Origin: Enterobacter huaxiensis
GTDB lineage: Bacteria > Pseudomonadota > Gammaproteobacteria > Enterobacterales > Enterobacteriaceae
DNA: 64,000 bases
Assembly (NCBI RefSeq): GCF_003594935.2
Contig: NZ_CP043342.1
Location: forward strand, 1,674,001-1,738,000
Direction of reading: 5' to 3'
Each line of letters starts with the position of its first letter. Position 1 is the stretch's first letter. The notes beneath the pieces are model-generated. The model was not told where the DNA came from and searched no databases. It saw only the letters and a program-made list of their open reading frames with translations. Of the stretch, positions 1 to 25,958 are shown one piece after another. A program made the position numbers and the translations under genes.

Positions 1-1284
1 TTTAACCGCGTGGCCGTTTGCGATGGTCGGCTGTATGAGATGAACGACGAGGATTATTTCGAAATTAACAGCGCCAGCGTTAAAAGCCTGAGCATCACGC
101 CGGCGCTGGATCTGAATCCGAAACTGAACGAATTCACCACGGGCTGGGTTGACGATATCTGGACGGCGTTTGGTGAAAAAGGGTATGTGGCGCTGGCGTT
201 CTGGCTGGGGTCGCTGTTCGCTGAGCAAATCCGTGAGCGTGACAAGTCTTTCCCGTTCCTTGAAATCGTGGGCGAACCCGGCACAGGTAAATCCACGCTG
301 ATTGAATTCCTGTGGAAACTTGCCGGCCGTGAAGAGTATGAAGGGTTTGACCCGTCCAAATCGACCGCTGCCGCGCGCGGCCGTAACTTCGCTCAGGTCG
401 GCAATTTGCCGGTCGTACTGATTGAGGGCGACCGCACCACAGATAACGCCAAACAACGCGCTTTTGACTGGGACGAGCTGAAATCACTGTACAACGGTCG
501 TGCTTCCCGCGCCGTGGGTATCAAATCGAACAATAACGAGACCTACGAGCCACCATTCAGAGGCAGCATAGTGATAGCGCAGAACGCCGACACAGACGGC
601 AGCAAGGCGTTCCTGGAGCGTATCATCCACATTTATACCGACAAGCGCGGCCAGTCCATTCAGACCCGCTATGCCGCCGAACGCCTCGAGCAAATACCTG
701 TTGGCCACGTATCTGGTTTTACGCTGCTGGCCACCATGCGCGAAAGAGAAATTATGAAAGTGTATGGCCAGGGCTACGAACGCGCCCGTAGTGAACTGGA
801 GTCCAACACCAATATTCGCCATATCCGTATTGCCAAGAACCACGCTCAGCTGGTCGGTTTGCTGGAGGCGCTGGCGCTGGTTGTGCCGGTACCGCTGGAA
901 CGCATTGAGAAGACACGCGAGGCCATCACGGCACTGGCCGTGGAACGCTGTCAGGCACTTAAAAAGGATCACCCTCTGGTACAGGGGTTCTGGGAGCTGT
1001 TTGATTACCTCGACGAGCTGGCACCGCACGGCATTAACCATTCATCAGATGAAGGGGAGATTGCCGTCAACTTCAACCATCTGGAAGAAGTCGCTGCCGC
1101 TCACCGTCAGCGCATTCCGTTCACGTTAACTGAGATCAAAAAGCTGCTTAAAAACGGCAATGAGCGCCGTTTTATCGACACCAAAACCACGCGTAGCGCG
1201 TTGAGTGAACGCCACAACCGTGGCAAAGGTGAAATGCAACGAATGCCGGAAACCTTCCGGTGCTGGATTTTTAAACGAAACTAA
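1..1284 (+). CDS. Phage replication helicase/primase, C-terminal part (cut by window edge)
   Basis: This is the C-terminal part of a phage replication protein. The frame is open to base 1, so the true start lies outside the window and the GTG at 10 is probably internal. The visible part has a Walker A motif GEPGTGKST at about residues 88-96 counted from that GTG, and a Walker B-like VVLIEGD about 40 residues later. This is the layout of the helicase half of P4-alpha-type or toprim primase-helicases. In this position in P2/HP1-like phages the gene unwinds and primes phage DNA. The stop is followed by a perfect palindrome (1316-1349) and the phage accessory gene. The ATPase fold is well supported; the presence of a primase domain upstream is inferred. 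Confidence 0.75.
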   Translation, partial: FNRVAVCDGRLYEMNDEDYFEINSASVKSLSITPALDLNPKLNEFTTGWVDDIWTAFGEKGYVALAFWLGSLFAEQIRERDKSFPFLEIVGEPGTGKSTLIEFLWKLAGREEYEGFDPSKSTAAARGRNFAQVGNLPVVLIEGDRTTDNAKQRAFDWDELKSLYNGRASRAVGIKSNNNETYEPPFRGSIVIAQNADTDGSKAFLERIIHIYTDKRGQSIQTRYAAERLEQIPVGHVSGFTLLATMREREIMKVYGQGYERARSELESNTNIRHIRIAKNHAQLVGLLEALALVVPVPLERIEKTREAITALAVERCQALKKDHPLVQGFWELFDYLDELAPHGINHSSDEGEIAVNFNHLEEVAAAHRQRIPFTLTEIKKLLKNGNERRFIDTKTTRSALSERHNRGKGEMQRMPETFRCWIFKRN

Positions 1285-1349: not shown

Positions 1350-1420
1350 CTTTCGAACTGTATGATATTATCCGCTTATCAATAACTCTGCTTATATAAA
1401 TAATGGTTGGTAAACATAAA

Positions 1421-2419
1421 ATGAGTGAAACCATAGATAAAGTTTTGGATGCGGCAAAAGCAGTTACAACAGAACCAGTAATGAAGGTTATAAATCAGAG
1501 GTTGTCAAATCCTTTTTTTCTGTGTTTTATATCATCCTGGATAATATGTAATTGGGATCGCGTACTACTACTCTGTTTCTCGTTTAGCTTGGGCATGGAA
1601 CAACGTATTGAGAAAGTAAAAGCATTGCCGTCAAATAGCGTTTTTTGGGGAGTTAGTCTTCCTCATGCTCATACGTTTTGGTATCCATTTATTATCACTG
1701 TTATATTTGTGGTTGGCACTCCGTTTCTTTCATATATTGTCGATATCATTCAAAATGAAGTGCTCACGAAAAAAAACACGAATGACAGTCAAAGAAAAAA
1801 GGACGTTCTGGATTTAAAGATAAATGAGATCAATAAAAATGTTGAGTATGAGTATGCTGACGCAAAAGCACGATTGAATGCTGAGAATGCGAATAAGACT
1901 ATTGAATATAGCACGACAGCTCTCGAGGAAAAATATAACGATATGAGTGTAAGGGTTAGGGATTTAAATATTTCCATAAAAGAAAAGGAACAACAAATTA
2001 AAGCTCAAAATGTTTCTTATACCCAGGCATCTGACTCTTTGTTAATGATAAGGGGAGAGCTGGACTTAAAAGGGAAGGAGTTGGTTGAACTAAATTCAAA
2101 AATTATCTCCAATCAAAAGAAACTTGATGGTATAAAAAACGAGATATCAAAGAACACTCTACCTTTTACAACTTTAGGTAATATCGCTAACTTAGTTGAT
2201 GGGAATGGTATAAGTAGTTTAAGTGGTTTAGGCTTAAGTGGTTTGGATTCTCTGAAGCTTAATAATGCAAATGGCCTAAGTAATGATGCTGTTAAACTTT
2301 CTTTAGCTGCTAAAGCTTTGAATGCCACAGATTTGAAACCAGCCCACACTAAAGCCGAGCCTAACAAACAAGCTAAATTAGCTGCTAAAAATCCCGGCAA
2401 GAATGACAAGAATAATTAA
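1421..2419 (+). CDS. Accessory membrane-anchored coiled-coil protein of unknown function
   Basis: I do not recognise a named family. The 332-residue product has an N-terminal block ending in NPFFLCFISSWIICNWD, a first hydrophobic segment, then a second strong transmembrane segment around WYPFIITVIFVVGTPFLSYIV. About 150 residues of heptad-like charged coiled coil follow, then a Gly/Ser/Leu-rich stretch and a Lys/Ala-rich tail. ATG 1421 is preferred because it gives a natural N-terminus (MSETIDK); ATG 1403 in frame is possible, and neither has a strong Shine-Dalgarno. The gene is markedly AT-rich compared with its phage neighbours. It sits between the replication gene and the ogr/portal block, which is the tin/old accessory hotspot of P2-like phages. 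A superinfection-exclusion or defence role is inferred from position only. Confidence 0.7.
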   Translation: MSETIDKVLDAAKAVTTEPVMKVINQRLSNPFFLCFISSWIICNWDRVLLLCFSFSLGMEQRIEKVKALPSNSVFWGVSLPHAHTFWYPFIITVIFVVGTPFLSYIVDIIQNEVLTKKNTNDSQRKKDVLDLKINEINKNVEYEYADAKARLNAENANKTIEYSTTALEEKYNDMSVRVRDLNISIKEKEQQIKAQNVSYTQASDSLLMIRGELDLKGKELVELNSKIISNQKKLDGIKNEISKNTLPFTTLGNIANLVDGNGISSLSGLGLSGLDSLKLNNANGLSNDAVKLSLAAKALNATDLKPAHTKAEPNKQAKLAAKNPGKNDKNN

Positions 2420-21451: not shown

Positions 21452-23131
21452 ATGAAACCGATAAAACGTCTGTACCTGTCAACCGATGAGGTACATCTCG
21501 CTGATGCCAGTCTGGTGCTGGAGCTGAACAGCTGCGGCCGGGGATTTATCACGGCCGAAACTGACCAGGATTATACCGGCAAGCTGGTGCGTCTTAATGT
21601 GGGCTATACAGACCTGCTTTTGCGGTGGTTTACCGGGTATGTTGAACGATCGCAGCCGGCTGATAACGGTTTTCAGCGGCTTTTTGTTCGTGAGCTGGTC
21701 GGCGTGTTTGAACGCCTGTGGCCATGCTCACTTCAGCACCCCACGCTGCGCAGTATTGCGGGCTGGCTGGAAGAGAACAGCGGCATTACGGTGATGGTTC
21801 CTGATGCTGACTACACCGATAAACCGATCCCCCACTTTACCCACAGCGGCAGCGGGTATCAGTTGTTGAATAATCTGGGTAAAGCCTTTGGCATAACGGA
21901 TTACATCTGGTACCAGCTACCGGATGGCGGGCTGTATGTGGGAGGCGCGGAAAAGTCACTCTTTGCCGGTAAGCCGGTGGATATCCCGGCCGGGTTCAGC
22001 CAGGGGGCTGCTGGCGGTAACACCATGACGTTACCCGTTGTTCAGAGCCTGCGGCCGGGGGTTGAAATGAACGGCGAGCGCGTCACAAAGGTACATCTGA
22101 CTAACGATACGATGGCCGTTACCTGGACACCGCGTAACCGCGCCACCGGCAAGCCATTGCAAAAATCACCGGTACAGCGGCAGATTGAAAGCCATTTCCC
22201 TGAGCTGGCGTCCGGGCTACACCTGCCGAAGTTCGCCAGGGTCATCGCGCCGACAGAAGCAGTTAAGAGCGGCAATTTTTCGGATCCGTTCCGTCCGCGC
22301 TACGCCGTGGACGTGCAGCTGCTTGACGCAGACGGAAAACCCGACGCGCAAACGCCCGTTTATTCTGCTGTTCCACTCCCGGTACCGATGGCCGGTAATG
22401 ATTCCGGCATGTACCAGTTCCCGCCTGAAGGTACGCTGGTAGAAGTTGCCTTTACTGACGGCCGGCCGGATAAACCATTTATCCGCCAGACTGTGCCGGA
22501 TGGTACCAGCCTGCCGGATATCAAACCCGGCGAGCAGCTCCAGCAGCAGCGGGCGGAAGTCTCCCAGCGCGTGACGCAGGCCGGAGACTGGGTACGGCAG
22601 ACTGACCAGACAATCAGCGAAACATCGATGGCCAGAACGGTTAAGGCAGATACGGAAAGTCGGGAGCTGGTGAGCCGGGAAACGACCATTAAAGCCACGG
22701 ATAAGACCAGCGTTATCGGTACGTCCACGTTGATGGCCGGAGCCATTCAGCAGGTCAGCACCGGTAAATTTAGCCAGGCGATTCAGGGTAGCCGGCTGGC
22801 CACGGTCGGCGGAAATGATGAACTGGCCGTAGCCGAAAACGCCACCGTTACGATCGGCATGAACCTGACGGAGCAGATTGGCCAGATCCGGAAAAGCGTT
22901 GCGGCCGTACAGCAGCAGATTATCGCGCCAGTGGTATGGATCGGTTCCGGCAGCATTAACGTGGCGCAGCTGATGCTGGATACGCTTGATGTGGTCAGGC
23001 AGCTGGCAGAACTGACGGCCAGCCACACGCACAGCAATACCGGCACGCCGACGAACGCCGGCGATATCCGCAGCACCGGCGCAAAGGCTGACACCTTGAA
23101 CGGTAAATACTCCCCCGTAATCGGCAAGTAA
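21452..23131 (+). CDS. Baseplate hub/spike protein (gpD-gpV-like, VgrG-type)
   Basis: This 559-residue protein appears to combine a hub domain like P2 gpD/Mu gp44 (residues about 1-250; YTGKLVRLNVGYTDLLLRWFTGYVE) with an OB-fold and spike region like gpV/Mu gp45. Marker stretches are RYAVDVQLLDADGKPD, VPLPVPMAGNDSGMYQFPPEGTLVEVAF, a repetitive beta-helix-like segment and a terminal ASHTHSNTGTPTNAGDI. Such a fused hub-spike plugs the tail tube and pierces the outer membrane. It is the last gene of the tail operon and is followed by a terminator. Confidence 0.85.
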   Translation: MKPIKRLYLSTDEVHLADASLVLELNSCGRGFITAETDQDYTGKLVRLNVGYTDLLLRWFTGYVERSQPADNGFQRLFVRELVGVFERLWPCSLQHPTLRSIAGWLEENSGITVMVPDADYTDKPIPHFTHSGSGYQLLNNLGKAFGITDYIWYQLPDGGLYVGGAEKSLFAGKPVDIPAGFSQGAAGGNTMTLPVVQSLRPGVEMNGERVTKVHLTNDTMAVTWTPRNRATGKPLQKSPVQRQIESHFPELASGLHLPKFARVIAPTEAVKSGNFSDPFRPRYAVDVQLLDADGKPDAQTPVYSAVPLPVPMAGNDSGMYQFPPEGTLVEVAFTDGRPDKPFIRQTVPDGTSLPDIKPGEQLQQQRAEVSQRVTQAGDWVRQTDQTISETSMARTVKADTESRELVSRETTIKATDKTSVIGTSTLMAGAIQQVSTGKFSQAIQGSRLATVGGNDELAVAENATVTIGMNLTEQIGQIRKSVAAVQQQIIAPVVWIGSGSINVAQLMLDTLDVVRQLAELTASHTHSNTGTPTNAGDIRSTGAKADTLNGKYSPVIGK

Positions 23132-23166: not shown

Positions 23167-23780
23167 GTACCCCCCTCAAACGGCACAGAACGCCCACAGC
23201 GCAGCGCACCCTTACATACAGACAAAGACACTCCTTTATTCAGCGCAGCGGCGCACGCCTGCGCCAGCGAATCCTGAGCGCGACGAAATAACGACGGAAG
23301 TAACGAAAACGGCGCTACACCGCACCCGCCTGCGGTTTTCGTGTTGAAAAAGATTTCAGTTTTTCCGGGGGGACAAAACAACCAGCCAGACTGCGCCAGC
23401 GCTGGGGCTTTAGAGTCCGATCTCCAACTGAAATGTGTGAAACAGATTTCAAAGATTTCAGTTTTAGGACAATGGCCAGCAGGTCGGTGCAGAAGGGAAA
23501 GGCTTGCACCATGCGGTGTCAGGTGTGATTACGTAACTTTTTACGTAAGGAGCGGAGCGAAATCTTCTAACTGCCAAAAGACAGAAAGCCACAGCTGGCG
23601 CGGGTTTGCGGGGAATGGTGCGAACTGGCGCAACTGAAATAATTTGCACAGATCCGTCCGCGCCCATCCCAGCGCACACATGCCGCTATCAGTGACCAAA
23701 TCAGTAACAGAGAGAGATACAAACTCACCATCAAATCAGGGTGATTTCTGACCAATCTGGATATTTCCAAAAATTGAAGG
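23167..23780. other. Non-coding prophage segment with small repeats
   Basis: No convincing gene is seen: the short open frames of 60-100 codons lack ribosome sites and recognisable content. The segment holds an inverted pair CGAAAAC (23304-23310) / GTTTTCG (23335-23341) and an exact 15-bp direct repeat. Two copies of the palindrome TTACGTAA (23529-23536 and 23541-23548) are also present. In HP1-like phages the cos site lies between the last tail gene and attP, so it may be here. The G-run in TCCGGGGGGAC (about 23364-23374) is one unproven candidate. Confidence 0.5.
23349..23465 (+). repeat. 15-bp direct repeat pair
   Basis: AAAGATTTCAGTTTT occurs at 23349-23363 and again, identically, at 23451-23465. 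CTGAAAT at about 23428 can also pair with the second copy (ATTTCAG), giving a local hairpin. The role is unknown; protein-binding sites close to cos or att are possible. Confidence 0.55.
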
Positions 23781-24073
23781 GGGGCATCGGAAAAACGTCA
23801 CAAACGTCACAAGATTAAAATTTATCCTCTATCTATATGAAATTTAATAATAAATAGACATTACTGTACCATCACAAAAACATCACAAGAGCATCACAGT
23901 GTGATGGTCTTAAAACATCACAACTCTGTTTTATATGTCACTGAATTTATTGAGTGTGACGGTTTGTGTTACGTTTTGTGATGGTTTGAGTGTCACAATA
24001 TTTATCGAGATAAATCAATAGGATAATAGGTTTTTTCAAGTGTGTGATGGTTGTGACGGTTTTCCGATGCCCC
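23781..24073. repeat. Iteron-like element: 31-bp inverted repeats enclosing TGTGAYG/CRTCACA motifs
   Basis: The outer arms 23781-23811 and 24043-24073 are inverted copies matching at 28 of 31 positions; each carries GGGGCATCGGAAAA and two heptamers. The 7-base motif CRTCACA or its complement TGTGAYG recurs at least ten times. Forward copies are at 23796, 23805, 23870, 23881, 23892 and 23916; reverse copies are at 23900, 23955, 23977, 24043 and 24052. A TGTCACA variant lies at 23991, and a perfect CATCACAGTGTGATG palindrome spans 23892-23906. Between the arms the DNA is very AT-rich. Multiple short motifs in both orientations around AT-rich DNA resemble a replication origin or the P4 crr. Confidence 0.75.
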
Positions 24074-24337
24074 ACTTAGAAATTAAGTGAGTAAGACGAG
24101 ACTTTTTGAAAATTCGGATGGCACTAAATAGAGTGCTACCATGTGTCGCTAGAATTTTCGTAAATGTACTGAATTCAATGATATCCTATGGAGATAGGAT
24201 CCCACGAAAAGGGTGTAGTTGTTAGGCGGAGAACCTAACCCGCTTGGCAAGGACAACATAACGCTTCTCAAAAGCATGTACTGAGCAAGCACATTTATGG
24301 GCAATTTTAATCTGCTTATAGAGGTTGAGATATCATT
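24073..24337 (+). other. Hairpin-rich leader before the SIR2 gene, candidate structured RNA
   Basis: Five perfect or near-perfect stems stand in line. CACTTA/TAAGTG spans 24073-24089. GAAAATTC (24108-24115) and GAATTTTC (24152-24159) enclose GCACT/AGTGC (24121-24136). ATCCTAT-GGAG-ATAGGAT spans 24183-24200, and GTTAGG/CCTAAC spans 24221-24239. GCTTCTCA (24263-24270) pairs with TGAGCAAGC (24282-24290) with one bulge. No gene is visible. The density of stems suggests a folded 5' leader or an independent small RNA; promoter and ends are not identified. Confidence 0.5.
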
Positions 24338-25690
24338 ATGGAATTCAACGAATATCAAGCTGAAGTAATTAAAGATATAAAATCTTGTCTGGAAGGTCTT
24401 CAGGTTCAACCCATTTTATTTATGGGGGCAGGTATTTCTCAACGTTATATGAACTCTCCTTGTTGGGAGGAGTTACTAAAGTATCTGGCAGATTTATGCC
24501 CGCTGATAACACGCCCTTACGGATATTATAACCAGATGCATAATGGCAATAAGCCAATGATTGCTAGTGATTTCTCTGAATTATATGCTGAATGGGCATG
24601 GGATGCAGGAAAAGATAATTTCCCTGAAAAATATTTTACGGAAAATAATTCAAAAGATATCTATATCAAGCATGTGATATCAAACCACTTAAATTCTTTA
24701 TCGGCTGGGGTAGATTTTGACACCCATGAGCATAGAGAAGAAATACAAAAACTCATAAAGATACGACCGCATGCAGTCATAACAACAAATTATGATGATG
24801 TTCTGGAAAGGATTTTTGAAAACTATCAACCAATAGTTGGTCATGATGTAGTTACGGTTAATTATACTTCCTACGGCGAAATCATGAAAATACACGGGAG
24901 TAGTACGGAACCTGAGAGTTTGATAATAACGAATGATGACTACATCCATTTTTATAATAGACGGAAATATATTAGTGCGAAATTGTTAACTTATTTCGCT
25001 GAGCATCCACTGTTCTTCTTTGGGTATAGTGTAAATGACGAAAATATAAAATCTATACTATCTGATATAGATGAGATTATTTCCCCAAACAATGCTCTAA
25101 TACCTAATATTTACTTGGTATCCTTTGATAAGGATTGTGAAAAAACTGGTTCACATCAAAAAGAAATACTTATAGGTGTTGGGGAGAATAAATCAATAAG
25201 AATAAAAGTAATCTACGCTAATGATTTTAGTTGGGTATATGACGCACTTTCATCGAACTCTCCAGAGATTAGTGTTAACCCTAAACTAATCAGAGCTCTC
25301 TTAGCTAGGACATACACTTTTGCATCCCAATCATTAGTTAAACAAGAATTAGCGTATGATTTCGAAATGCTTAGACAAATTGCTGAAGAAGATAGTACTC
25401 TGCCTAAGCTGTATGGAATCGCTGAGCTTAATAATGGGCAGGCATTGAATGCAAACTACCCTTATACAATGTCTGAAGTAGCAAAACTATTAGGTCGGCA
25501 GTCATGGCATGCAGTGCAAAATATAATTGATAAAATTGAAGAAGAAAAACATTTTGATATAAAATCGAGTGATAATAATTACCACATAACAATAATGACA
25601 GGGAAAACAGGCTTTCATAAATATTCTCCATTGGCCCTTGAATTAATGAAAAAGGTCATAAACGGAGATGATTACGAACTGAATTTGTAA
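24338..25690 (+). CDS. SIR2-family protein, probable NAD+-degrading anti-phage effector
   Basis: This 450-residue protein has a SIR2-like NAD-binding domain. It contains GAGIS at residues 30-34, TTNYD at 149-153 (catalytic-type Asn151), KIHGS at 184-188 (His186) and FFGYSVNDENI at about 228-238. This is the pattern of bacterial SIR2 defence proteins, which deplete NAD+ on phage infection, not of classic zinc-containing CobB deacetylases. The C-terminal 130 residues are helical with a winged-helix-like stretch (YTMSEVAKLLGRQSWHAVQNII) and could be the sensor. The gene is strongly AT-rich, sits alone next to attR, and has AGAGG upstream of its start. A defence role is inferred from family and position; the trigger is unknown. 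Confidence 0.85.
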   Translation: MEFNEYQAEVIKDIKSCLEGLQVQPILFMGAGISQRYMNSPCWEELLKYLADLCPLITRPYGYYNQMHNGNKPMIASDFSELYAEWAWDAGKDNFPEKYFTENNSKDIYIKHVISNHLNSLSAGVDFDTHEHREEIQKLIKIRPHAVITTNYDDVLERIFENYQPIVGHDVVTVNYTSYGEIMKIHGSSTEPESLIITNDDYIHFYNRRKYISAKLLTYFAEHPLFFFGYSVNDENIKSILSDIDEIISPNNALIPNIYLVSFDKDCEKTGSHQKEILIGVGENKSIRIKVIYANDFSWVYDALSSNSPEISVNPKLIRALLARTYTFASQSLVKQELAYDFEMLRQIAEEDSTLPKLYGIAELNNGQALNANYPYTMSEVAKLLGRQSWHAVQNIIDKIEEEKHFDIKSSDNNYHITIMTGKTGFHKYSPLALELMKKVINGDDYELNL

Positions 25691-25871: not shown

Positions 25872-25958
25872 AAAAAAATAAGCCCGCGTAAGGGAGATTA
25901 CGCAGGCTAAGGAGGTGGTTCCTGGTACAGCTAGCATTTATGGGTTATGTTTTTCAGC
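25872..25958 (-). ncRNA. cyaR: CyaR small regulatory RNA
   Basis: On the minus strand the 87-base RNA starts GCTGAAAAACATAACCC at 25958. It contains the conserved CCAGGAACCACCTCCTTAGC seed region, complementary to Shine-Dalgarno sequences, and ends in a hairpin with TTATTTTTTT. CyaR is an Hfq-binding sRNA that represses ompX, luxS, nadE and other targets by blocking ribosome binding. Location beside trhP/yegQ agrees with E. coli. The terminator stem contains the prophage att core but remains intact. Confidence 0.95.
25873..25899. mobile_element. attR: P2-type attachment core within the cyaR terminator
   Basis: The 27-base segment matches the P2 att core as I remember it at 26 positions; the difference is a C in place of T in AAGCCCGCGTAAGGGAG. 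It lies within the 3' terminator stem of cyaR, so recombination rebuilds the sRNA terminator. Phage genes end to its left and the conserved chromosome begins to its right. The matching attL should be left of the window. Confidence 0.85.

Follow-up and report, generated by a model that had tools for sequence, protein, structure and literature searches.

The AT-rich, gene-free element between the tail genes and the right attachment site of this P2-family prophage is best interpreted as the phage's DNA replication origin, bound by the phage's own primase-helicase. A probability of about 0.83 is assigned to this interpretation. Both the binding and the origin activity are inferred, by analogy with SaPI/PICI origins, and no experimental data are available. 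Of the roles suggested in the preliminary description of this DNA (origin, P4 crr-like enhancer, partition site, or a satellite-phage or regulator-binding site), the origin is better supported than the crr, partition or satellite site.

Results

Prophage setting and structure of the element

The window, i.e. the whole 64,000-nucleotide stretch that was analyzed, contains the right part of a Peduoviridae prophage that is Evevirus-like and near Escherichia phage ESSI2_ev239 (ev239; genus Evevirus). A 22-bp direct repeat, AAAAAATAAGCCCGCGTAAGGG, found at L006:11503 and again at window position 25873, represents attL and attR. The element is within the prophage, 1.8 kb from attR, in agreement with its earlier placement at the end of the prophage. 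The prophage begins with integrase, repressor, Cox, exonuclease, an 884-aa primase, an Ogr-like regulator, portal, terminase, capsid and tail genes, and ends with a baseplate gene (to 23131), the presumed cos, the element, a SIR2 accessory gene and attR. On the circular phage genome, these coordinates put attP between the element and the primase gene, with the element ~ 4.9 kb upstream of that gene. A helper-dependent satellite is not indicated, since the prophage carries terminase, portal, tail and baseplate genes and matches the complete phage ev239. Coordinates of all features are collected in Table 1.

Table 1 Features of the element and its surroundings (window coordinates unless a locus is given).
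Feature	Position	Strand	Remarks
Primase-helicase, C-terminal half	10..1284	+	Full gene L006:14630-17284, 884 aa, phrog_1139
Putative iteron-binding domain, winged-helix-like	about 1027-1281	+	Last ~85 residues of the primase
Last tail gene (baseplate protein, phrog_2258), left neighbor	21452..23131	+	Gene scan
Approximate cos region	23315..23329		Overlap of the two ends of the linear ESSI-2 record; element ~450 bp to the right
Complete iteron array, putative origin of replication	23777..24077		Full-length homology to ev239 (81%) and E. coli prophages
Left inverted arm	23777..23820	+	GGGG-CATCGGAAAA box and iterons 23797, 23806
Left iteron-free AT-rich spacer	23821..23870		Position of IHF site 1 in relatives; without consensus match here
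Inner iteron cluster 1	23871..23922		RTCACA at 23871+, 23882+, 23893+, 23900-, 23917+
Middle iteron-free spacer	23923..23954		IHF site 2 in relatives; degenerate in the window copy
Inner iteron cluster 2	23955..23997		23955-, 23967- (one mismatch), 23977-, 23992+
IHF-like site AATCAATAGGATA, right spacer	24013..24025	+	One mismatch to WATCARNNNNTTR; exact match at the same place in several relatives
Right inverted arm	24034..24077	-	Inverted iterons 24043, 24052 and TTTTCCGATGCCCC box
SIR2-domain accessory gene, right neighbor	24338..25690	+	PADLOC PDC-S25, candidate defence family; varies among relatives
attR copy of the 22-bp direct repeat	25873..25894	+	attL at L006:11503

A copy of the SIR2 gene, 93% identical, is present in a prophage remnant (L050:7599-8948). 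Between the primase and Ogr-like genes lies a 338-aa gene (window 1403-2419; phrog_4780) with a weak PADLOC match to LmuB (E 3e-4); ev239 has different, smaller genes in this interval.

The inverted arms of the element (23781-23811 and 24043-24073) are complementary at 28 of 31 positions, and extending them to 44 nt leaves 82% complementarity. Twelve RTCACA/TGTGAY hexamers occur within 261 bp in both orientations, 11 of them as CRTCACA, and one further site, CGTAACA, carries a single mismatch. In an 80-kb stretch containing 42 such hexamers in total, no other 300-bp interval held more than two. AT content between the outer iterons is ~ 0.69, and no gene is annotated under the homologous stretch in ev239 or in E. 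coli. Direct reading thus reproduced the 31-bp arms, the at least ten CRTCACA/TGTGAYG heptamers in both orientations, the AT-rich core and the absence of a gene given in the preliminary description. Its term "iteron-like" is slightly loose, as the repeats are real and occur in both orientations rather than only in tandem.

Phage ev239 carries the element at 81% identity, and homology to the window runs from 23322 to 24083, ending where the accessory gene region starts. E. coli prophages at the pheL-raiA site have the element at the equivalent place, beside an acyltransferase gene, and encode the same Toprim primase as the window. Transposon or MITE ends were rejected on the basis of the single genomic copy and the continuation of ev239 homology past the left arm. 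A regulatory site for the accessory gene was likewise rejected, as the neighboring gene varies (acyltransferase, SIR2, nuclease) and the array elsewhere lies behind the primase gene.

Co-occurrence of the array with the primase

The primase is present in 13 of 392 host-family genomes, and an array was found in the same prophage in all 13, in six by blastn and in the rest by reading or by array scan; in one of these genomes the primase is broken and the array shortened. Blastn hits to the element coincide with the primase in 6 genomes (hypergeometric P = 7e-8). An array is also present in each of the seven complete primase-encoding GenBank phages examined (ev239, Dobby, Smp131, Halomonas 4908, PfPro, phi3 and PaBSM), with scores of 9.4–24, and the partial genome 2F_1, which bears the primase, scored 7.7. 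No array was found in ten gpA-type phages that belong to the Peduoviridae or share the tail module (ESSI2_ev129, ev040, ev015, ESSI-2, YenM_324, SI7, HP1, K139, phiO18P and P2; top scores 4.5–7.9). Arrays accompany the primase in every sufficiently complete case checked and are absent from these gpA-type relatives. The co-occurrence test set in the preliminary description is thus passed, which supports the earlier proposal that the element is the binding array of the replication protein encoded at the left window edge.

Arrays were scanned with a Poisson score, using gpA-phage and shuffled sequences as controls; GC-rich contigs gave false 6-mer matches. A strict scan of 10-kb primase flanks detected few arrays, because the array is often at the other prophage end, and whole contigs were then scanned. 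Scores above 9 were obtained for 19 of 34 primase-bearing genomes or contigs, the remainder being mostly trimmed prophage predictions. Several truncated viral contigs with the primase showed no array on scanning; their ends have probably been trimmed off, which is not proven. Since one shuffled sequence reached 10.3 (gpA-phage controls, up to 7.9), single scores of 9–10 are not conclusive, and the conserved layout described below is stronger evidence than any single score.

According to the preliminary description, occurrence of the element without any such replication gene would refute the link between the two. This situation was met in 4 of 392 host-family genomes, where the whole element or a part of it is present but the primase is absent, and in two Salmonella plasmid records. 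Three of the four genomes hold prophage remnants: a baseplate fragment in L050, an integrase fragment beside raiA in L051, and a baseplate gene with an integrase fragment in L053. Arrays in the four genomes (L050-L053) scored lower, with a maximum of 8.5. The plasmid records, CP053580 (L005:7979-8180) and CP054717, are conjugative plasmids with about half of the element and 8 hexamers; no primase is annotated in their fetched regions.

Prophage A2 of E. coli, a gpA phage with ParM-type genes, retains only a 57-bp decayed array remnant. Tandem GATGAAGC octamers lie beside it, directly upstream of an ATP-dependent nuclease gene (L010:20125-20210), and were rejected as an array, being a microsatellite.

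Location of the array relative to the primase gene

The position of the array shifts among phages. It lies directly 3′ of the primase gene in L054, L055, L062, L063, L072, L073, phi3 and PaBSM, a group that includes Pectobacterium and Samsonia prophages, and 1.3 kb behind it in L074. In the window, ev239 and G392 it occupies the opposite prophage end from the primase, and in Dobby and Smp131 it is likewise not behind the primase gene. Neither the tail, nor cos, nor the accessory gene can therefore be the constant partner of the array; that partner is the primase. As a separate observation, the array of L062 appears to be tandemly repeated behind the primase gene (L062:7650-8510), a complete copy standing between two incomplete ones, whereas the arrays elsewhere are single.

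These locations bear on a packaging function (cos or a terminase-binding site). The annotated cos of HP1 and phiO18P lies just behind the homologous baseplate gene, and the element is within about 0.5 kb of cos in the window and in Smp131 (PMC3931495). However, the presumed cos of the window maps apart from the element, gpA phages with related tail genes have no array, and in phi3, PaBSM and the Pectobacterium and Samsonia prophages the array sits behind the primase rather than in the tail-end cos slot. The element was accordingly rejected as cos itself, and any packaging role is considered very improbable.

Phage P4 requires two separate iteron regions. By this precedent, the element could be an accessory cis site of the same primase, for example a crr-like enhancer or second loading site, with the true origin elsewhere, e.g. 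near the primase gene. The array is indeed far from that gene in the window, and a short TGTGACATAA...TTATGTCACA palindrome sits just behind it. This explanation is nevertheless unlikely: the window prophage, Dobby, Smp131, phi3 and others yielded no second array, and several relatives have their only array directly behind the primase gene, which is the site of SaPI origins (PMC6092414). The palindrome itself, which the preliminary description had reported 3′ of the replication gene, is real and perfect (TGTGACATAATGATGGAAGATGTTATGTCACA; TGTGACATAA-N12-TTATGTCACA, ~ 1317-1348). It includes one inverted pair of the iteron core and may be a terminator or a regulator site, or what is left of an array once adjacent to the primase gene.

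Conserved iteron geometry and IHF-consensus sites

The array belongs to a widespread family of 260–320 bp that travels with the phrog_1139 Toprim primase-helicase and whose iterons differ by lineage (RTCACA, RTTACA, GGTAAY, CTAAC, TGTCAG or GGAACA). The layout is conserved across these different sequences. Iterons of the window start at offsets 0, 9, 74, 85, 96, 103(-), 120, 158(-), 180(-), 195, 246(-) and 255(-), and those of Dobby at 0, 9, 74, 85, 96, 105(-), 171(-), 183(-), 193(-), 205, 259(-) and 268(-). Over ten arrays of different sequence, the fraction of inner iterons matched in both place and orientation was 0.744, compared to 0.342 expected from random placement (sd 0.026, maximum 0.419). 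Only positions were randomized in this null. Part of the conservation is attributable to common ancestry of the backbone, in which case the iterons have been rewritten in place. GGGG...CGGAAAA boxes stand beside the outer iterons in most arrays, and the CGGAAAA/TTTTCCG box recurs in most relatives that have other iteron sequences.

Exact matches to the IHF consensus WATCARNNNNTTR are strongly enriched: the 22 elements contain 21 of them, a density of 3.06 per kb. This is ~ 48 times the 0.064 per kb of the remaining parts of the same sequences, and shuffled elements gave 0.14. The matches form three clusters within the iteron-free spacers (element positions ~ 51-68, 155-173 and 236-250). Nine of the 22 elements, including the window copy with its one-mismatch site, have no exact match. 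Use of IHF by the phage is inferred from this enrichment.

Two other types of site share these features. P1 parS has IHF-like sites flanked by short repeats in both orientations, and the IHF-like sites and two-orientation repeats of the element would also suit a partition, copy-control or incompatibility site of the parS or plasmid inc type. Such a role has very little support, as the constant partner of the array is a primase-helicase and not ParA/ParB, no Par gene was recognized among the window genes scanned, and the A2 prophage, which combines ParM-type genes with gpA replication, keeps only the decayed remnant. The layout of lambda attP, with arm-type repeats in two orientations and interspersed IHF sites, is also resembled by the repeats and IHF sites spread over about 260 bp of the element. 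An attP-like integrase recombination site can practically be dismissed, however. The crossover core of attP is split by integration, while the array remains intact in prophages and the att repeat of the window maps to 25873 and L006:11503, so the element was rejected as attP; the attP of Smp131 is also located elsewhere than its array (PMC3931495).

The primase-helicase and a natural change of iteron sequence

Family phrog_1139 is a separate DNA primase family, and other primase PHROGs match its Toprim region only. A profile search of PDB chains likewise returned sequence-level matches only to DnaG Toprim domains, with none of the full primase to SaPI Rep. An AlphaFold2 model of the L069 primase, 97% identical to the window protein, was obtained with a pLDDT of 88 and a pTM of 0.66. 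The best fold matches of this model were to SCCmec Cch (5dgk, E 2.7e-17) and SaPIbov1 Rep (8tch, 2e-11), followed by DnaG/T7 primases and D5-type helicases. Residues 782-884 are predicted to form a winged-helix-like H-E-H-H-E-(H)-E arrangement; searched alone against the PDB with Foldseek, this C-terminal domain gave nothing significant. In three viral contigs (G404, G425 and G426; L170, L225 and L227), a second, partial match to the helicase region of the primase (27–38% identity) was observed directly behind the primase gene.

A candidate recognition region is suggested by one natural change of iteron sequence. Iterons of L162 read GTCACA, while its close relatives L163 and L165 have GTTACA at the corresponding sites. 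The L162 primase differs from those of L163/L165 at 29% of residues from position 800 onward and at 6% elsewhere, whereas the same-iteron pair L163/L165 shows 6.6% differences before residue 800 and 2.2% after it (Fisher P = 2e-5 for the C-terminal excess of the switch pair over the same-iteron pair). Columns separating TCACA from TTACA proteins are 807, 850, 864 and 875, together with one at 490. The C-terminal domain is somewhat more variable than the rest even in same-iteron pairs, with ratios up to 3.8, and in the wider comparison of the window with L073 the ratio is 1.5 and the C-terminal excess is not distinctive. C-terminal divergence thus accompanies the iteron switch, in what is a single event and a correlation between sequences.

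Discussion

SaPI/PICI origins consist of oppositely oriented iteron sets around AT-rich DNA, adjoining rep (PMC6092414). The C-terminal domains of SaPI Rep and Cch2 bind iterons located beside the respective genes (PMC7581432). The element resembles these systems (SaPIbov1, EcCICFT073) in its oppositely oriented short iterons around AT-rich DNA, and its presumed cognate primase resembles SaPIbov1 Rep and Cch in the modeled helicase fold. In SaPI/PICI the cognate Rep or Pri-Rep is a self-loading SF3/Rep-type helicase or a primase-helicase with C-terminal iteron binding, and the ori is often directly 3′ of rep. Unlike them, the present family has four iteron groups in a fixed layout rather than two sets, three IHF-consensus spacers and conserved outer boxes, and a primase domain of the DnaG-type Toprim rather than AEP class; its array lies directly behind the primase gene in some phages but can be far from it in others (window, ev239, Dobby, Smp131), and, in contrast to PICI satellites, it occurs in complete Peduoviridae phages.

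Similarity to P4 ori/crr lies in two-orientation iteron clusters, a phage primase-helicase and non-gpA replication in a P2-related setting. Unlike P4, the window region and the complete relatives have a single array, of different iteron sequence, and the fold matches listed for the primase do not include the P4 origin-binding domain. The tests that were run, which did not include a direct comparison to alpha, gave no sign that the putative initiator is a P4-alpha homologue; this refines the preliminary description, which cited alpha-type primase-helicases as the precedent. P2, HP1 and K139 belong to the same phage family and share the neighboring genes, but have no array; P2-type gpA rolling-circle replication uses a nick site inside gene A, whereas the window prophage has the primase in the replication slot of gpA. 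Searching the closely related prophages L056, L057/L058 and L060 with gpA yielded no match, and no nickase was recognized among the window genes scanned.

Under the origin interpretation, several copies of the primase-helicase would bind the 12 iterons through their C-terminal domain after excision. The initiator is predicted to combine an N-terminal zinc/Toprim primase, an SF3-type helicase with a fold like SaPIbov1 Rep and SCCmec Cch, and the C-terminal winged-helix-like domain. In most relatives, host IHF may bend the three iteron-free spacers and thereby bring outer and inner iterons together in a single compact complex. Rings of the helicase would then assemble and melt the AT-rich DNA, which the primase domain of the same protein could prime. 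Binding, melting, ring loading and the start of replication at the element are all inferred by analogy.

No earlier description of the array was found in PMC searches, which leave most subscription journals outside their coverage, and the passages searched in the Smp131 genome paper describe cos and att without mention of an origin (PMC3931495). A bolder interpretation, given somewhat better than even odds, is a previously unrecognized family of phage origins. In this family, a DnaG-type primase joined to a SaPI-Rep-like helicase would read a fixed layout of twelve sites and three IHF positions kept across gamma- and beta-proteobacterial phages. The recognized sequence would change at every site together with the C-terminal domain, so that replication specificities become private, and the site as a whole could be relocated within the genome.

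P2-family phages serve in textbooks as the example of gpA rolling-circle replication. In many of their relatives a different replicon is indicated instead, for which an origin, an initiator and a recognition domain are predicted and open to direct testing. The array offers a simple rule for locating the origin in many unannotated prophages, and a clean natural system for studying how the specificity of an initiator and of its dozen identical sites shifts jointly. Arrays in prophage remnants that lack the primase might still serve as decoys, or a related phage that infects the cell might replicate them.
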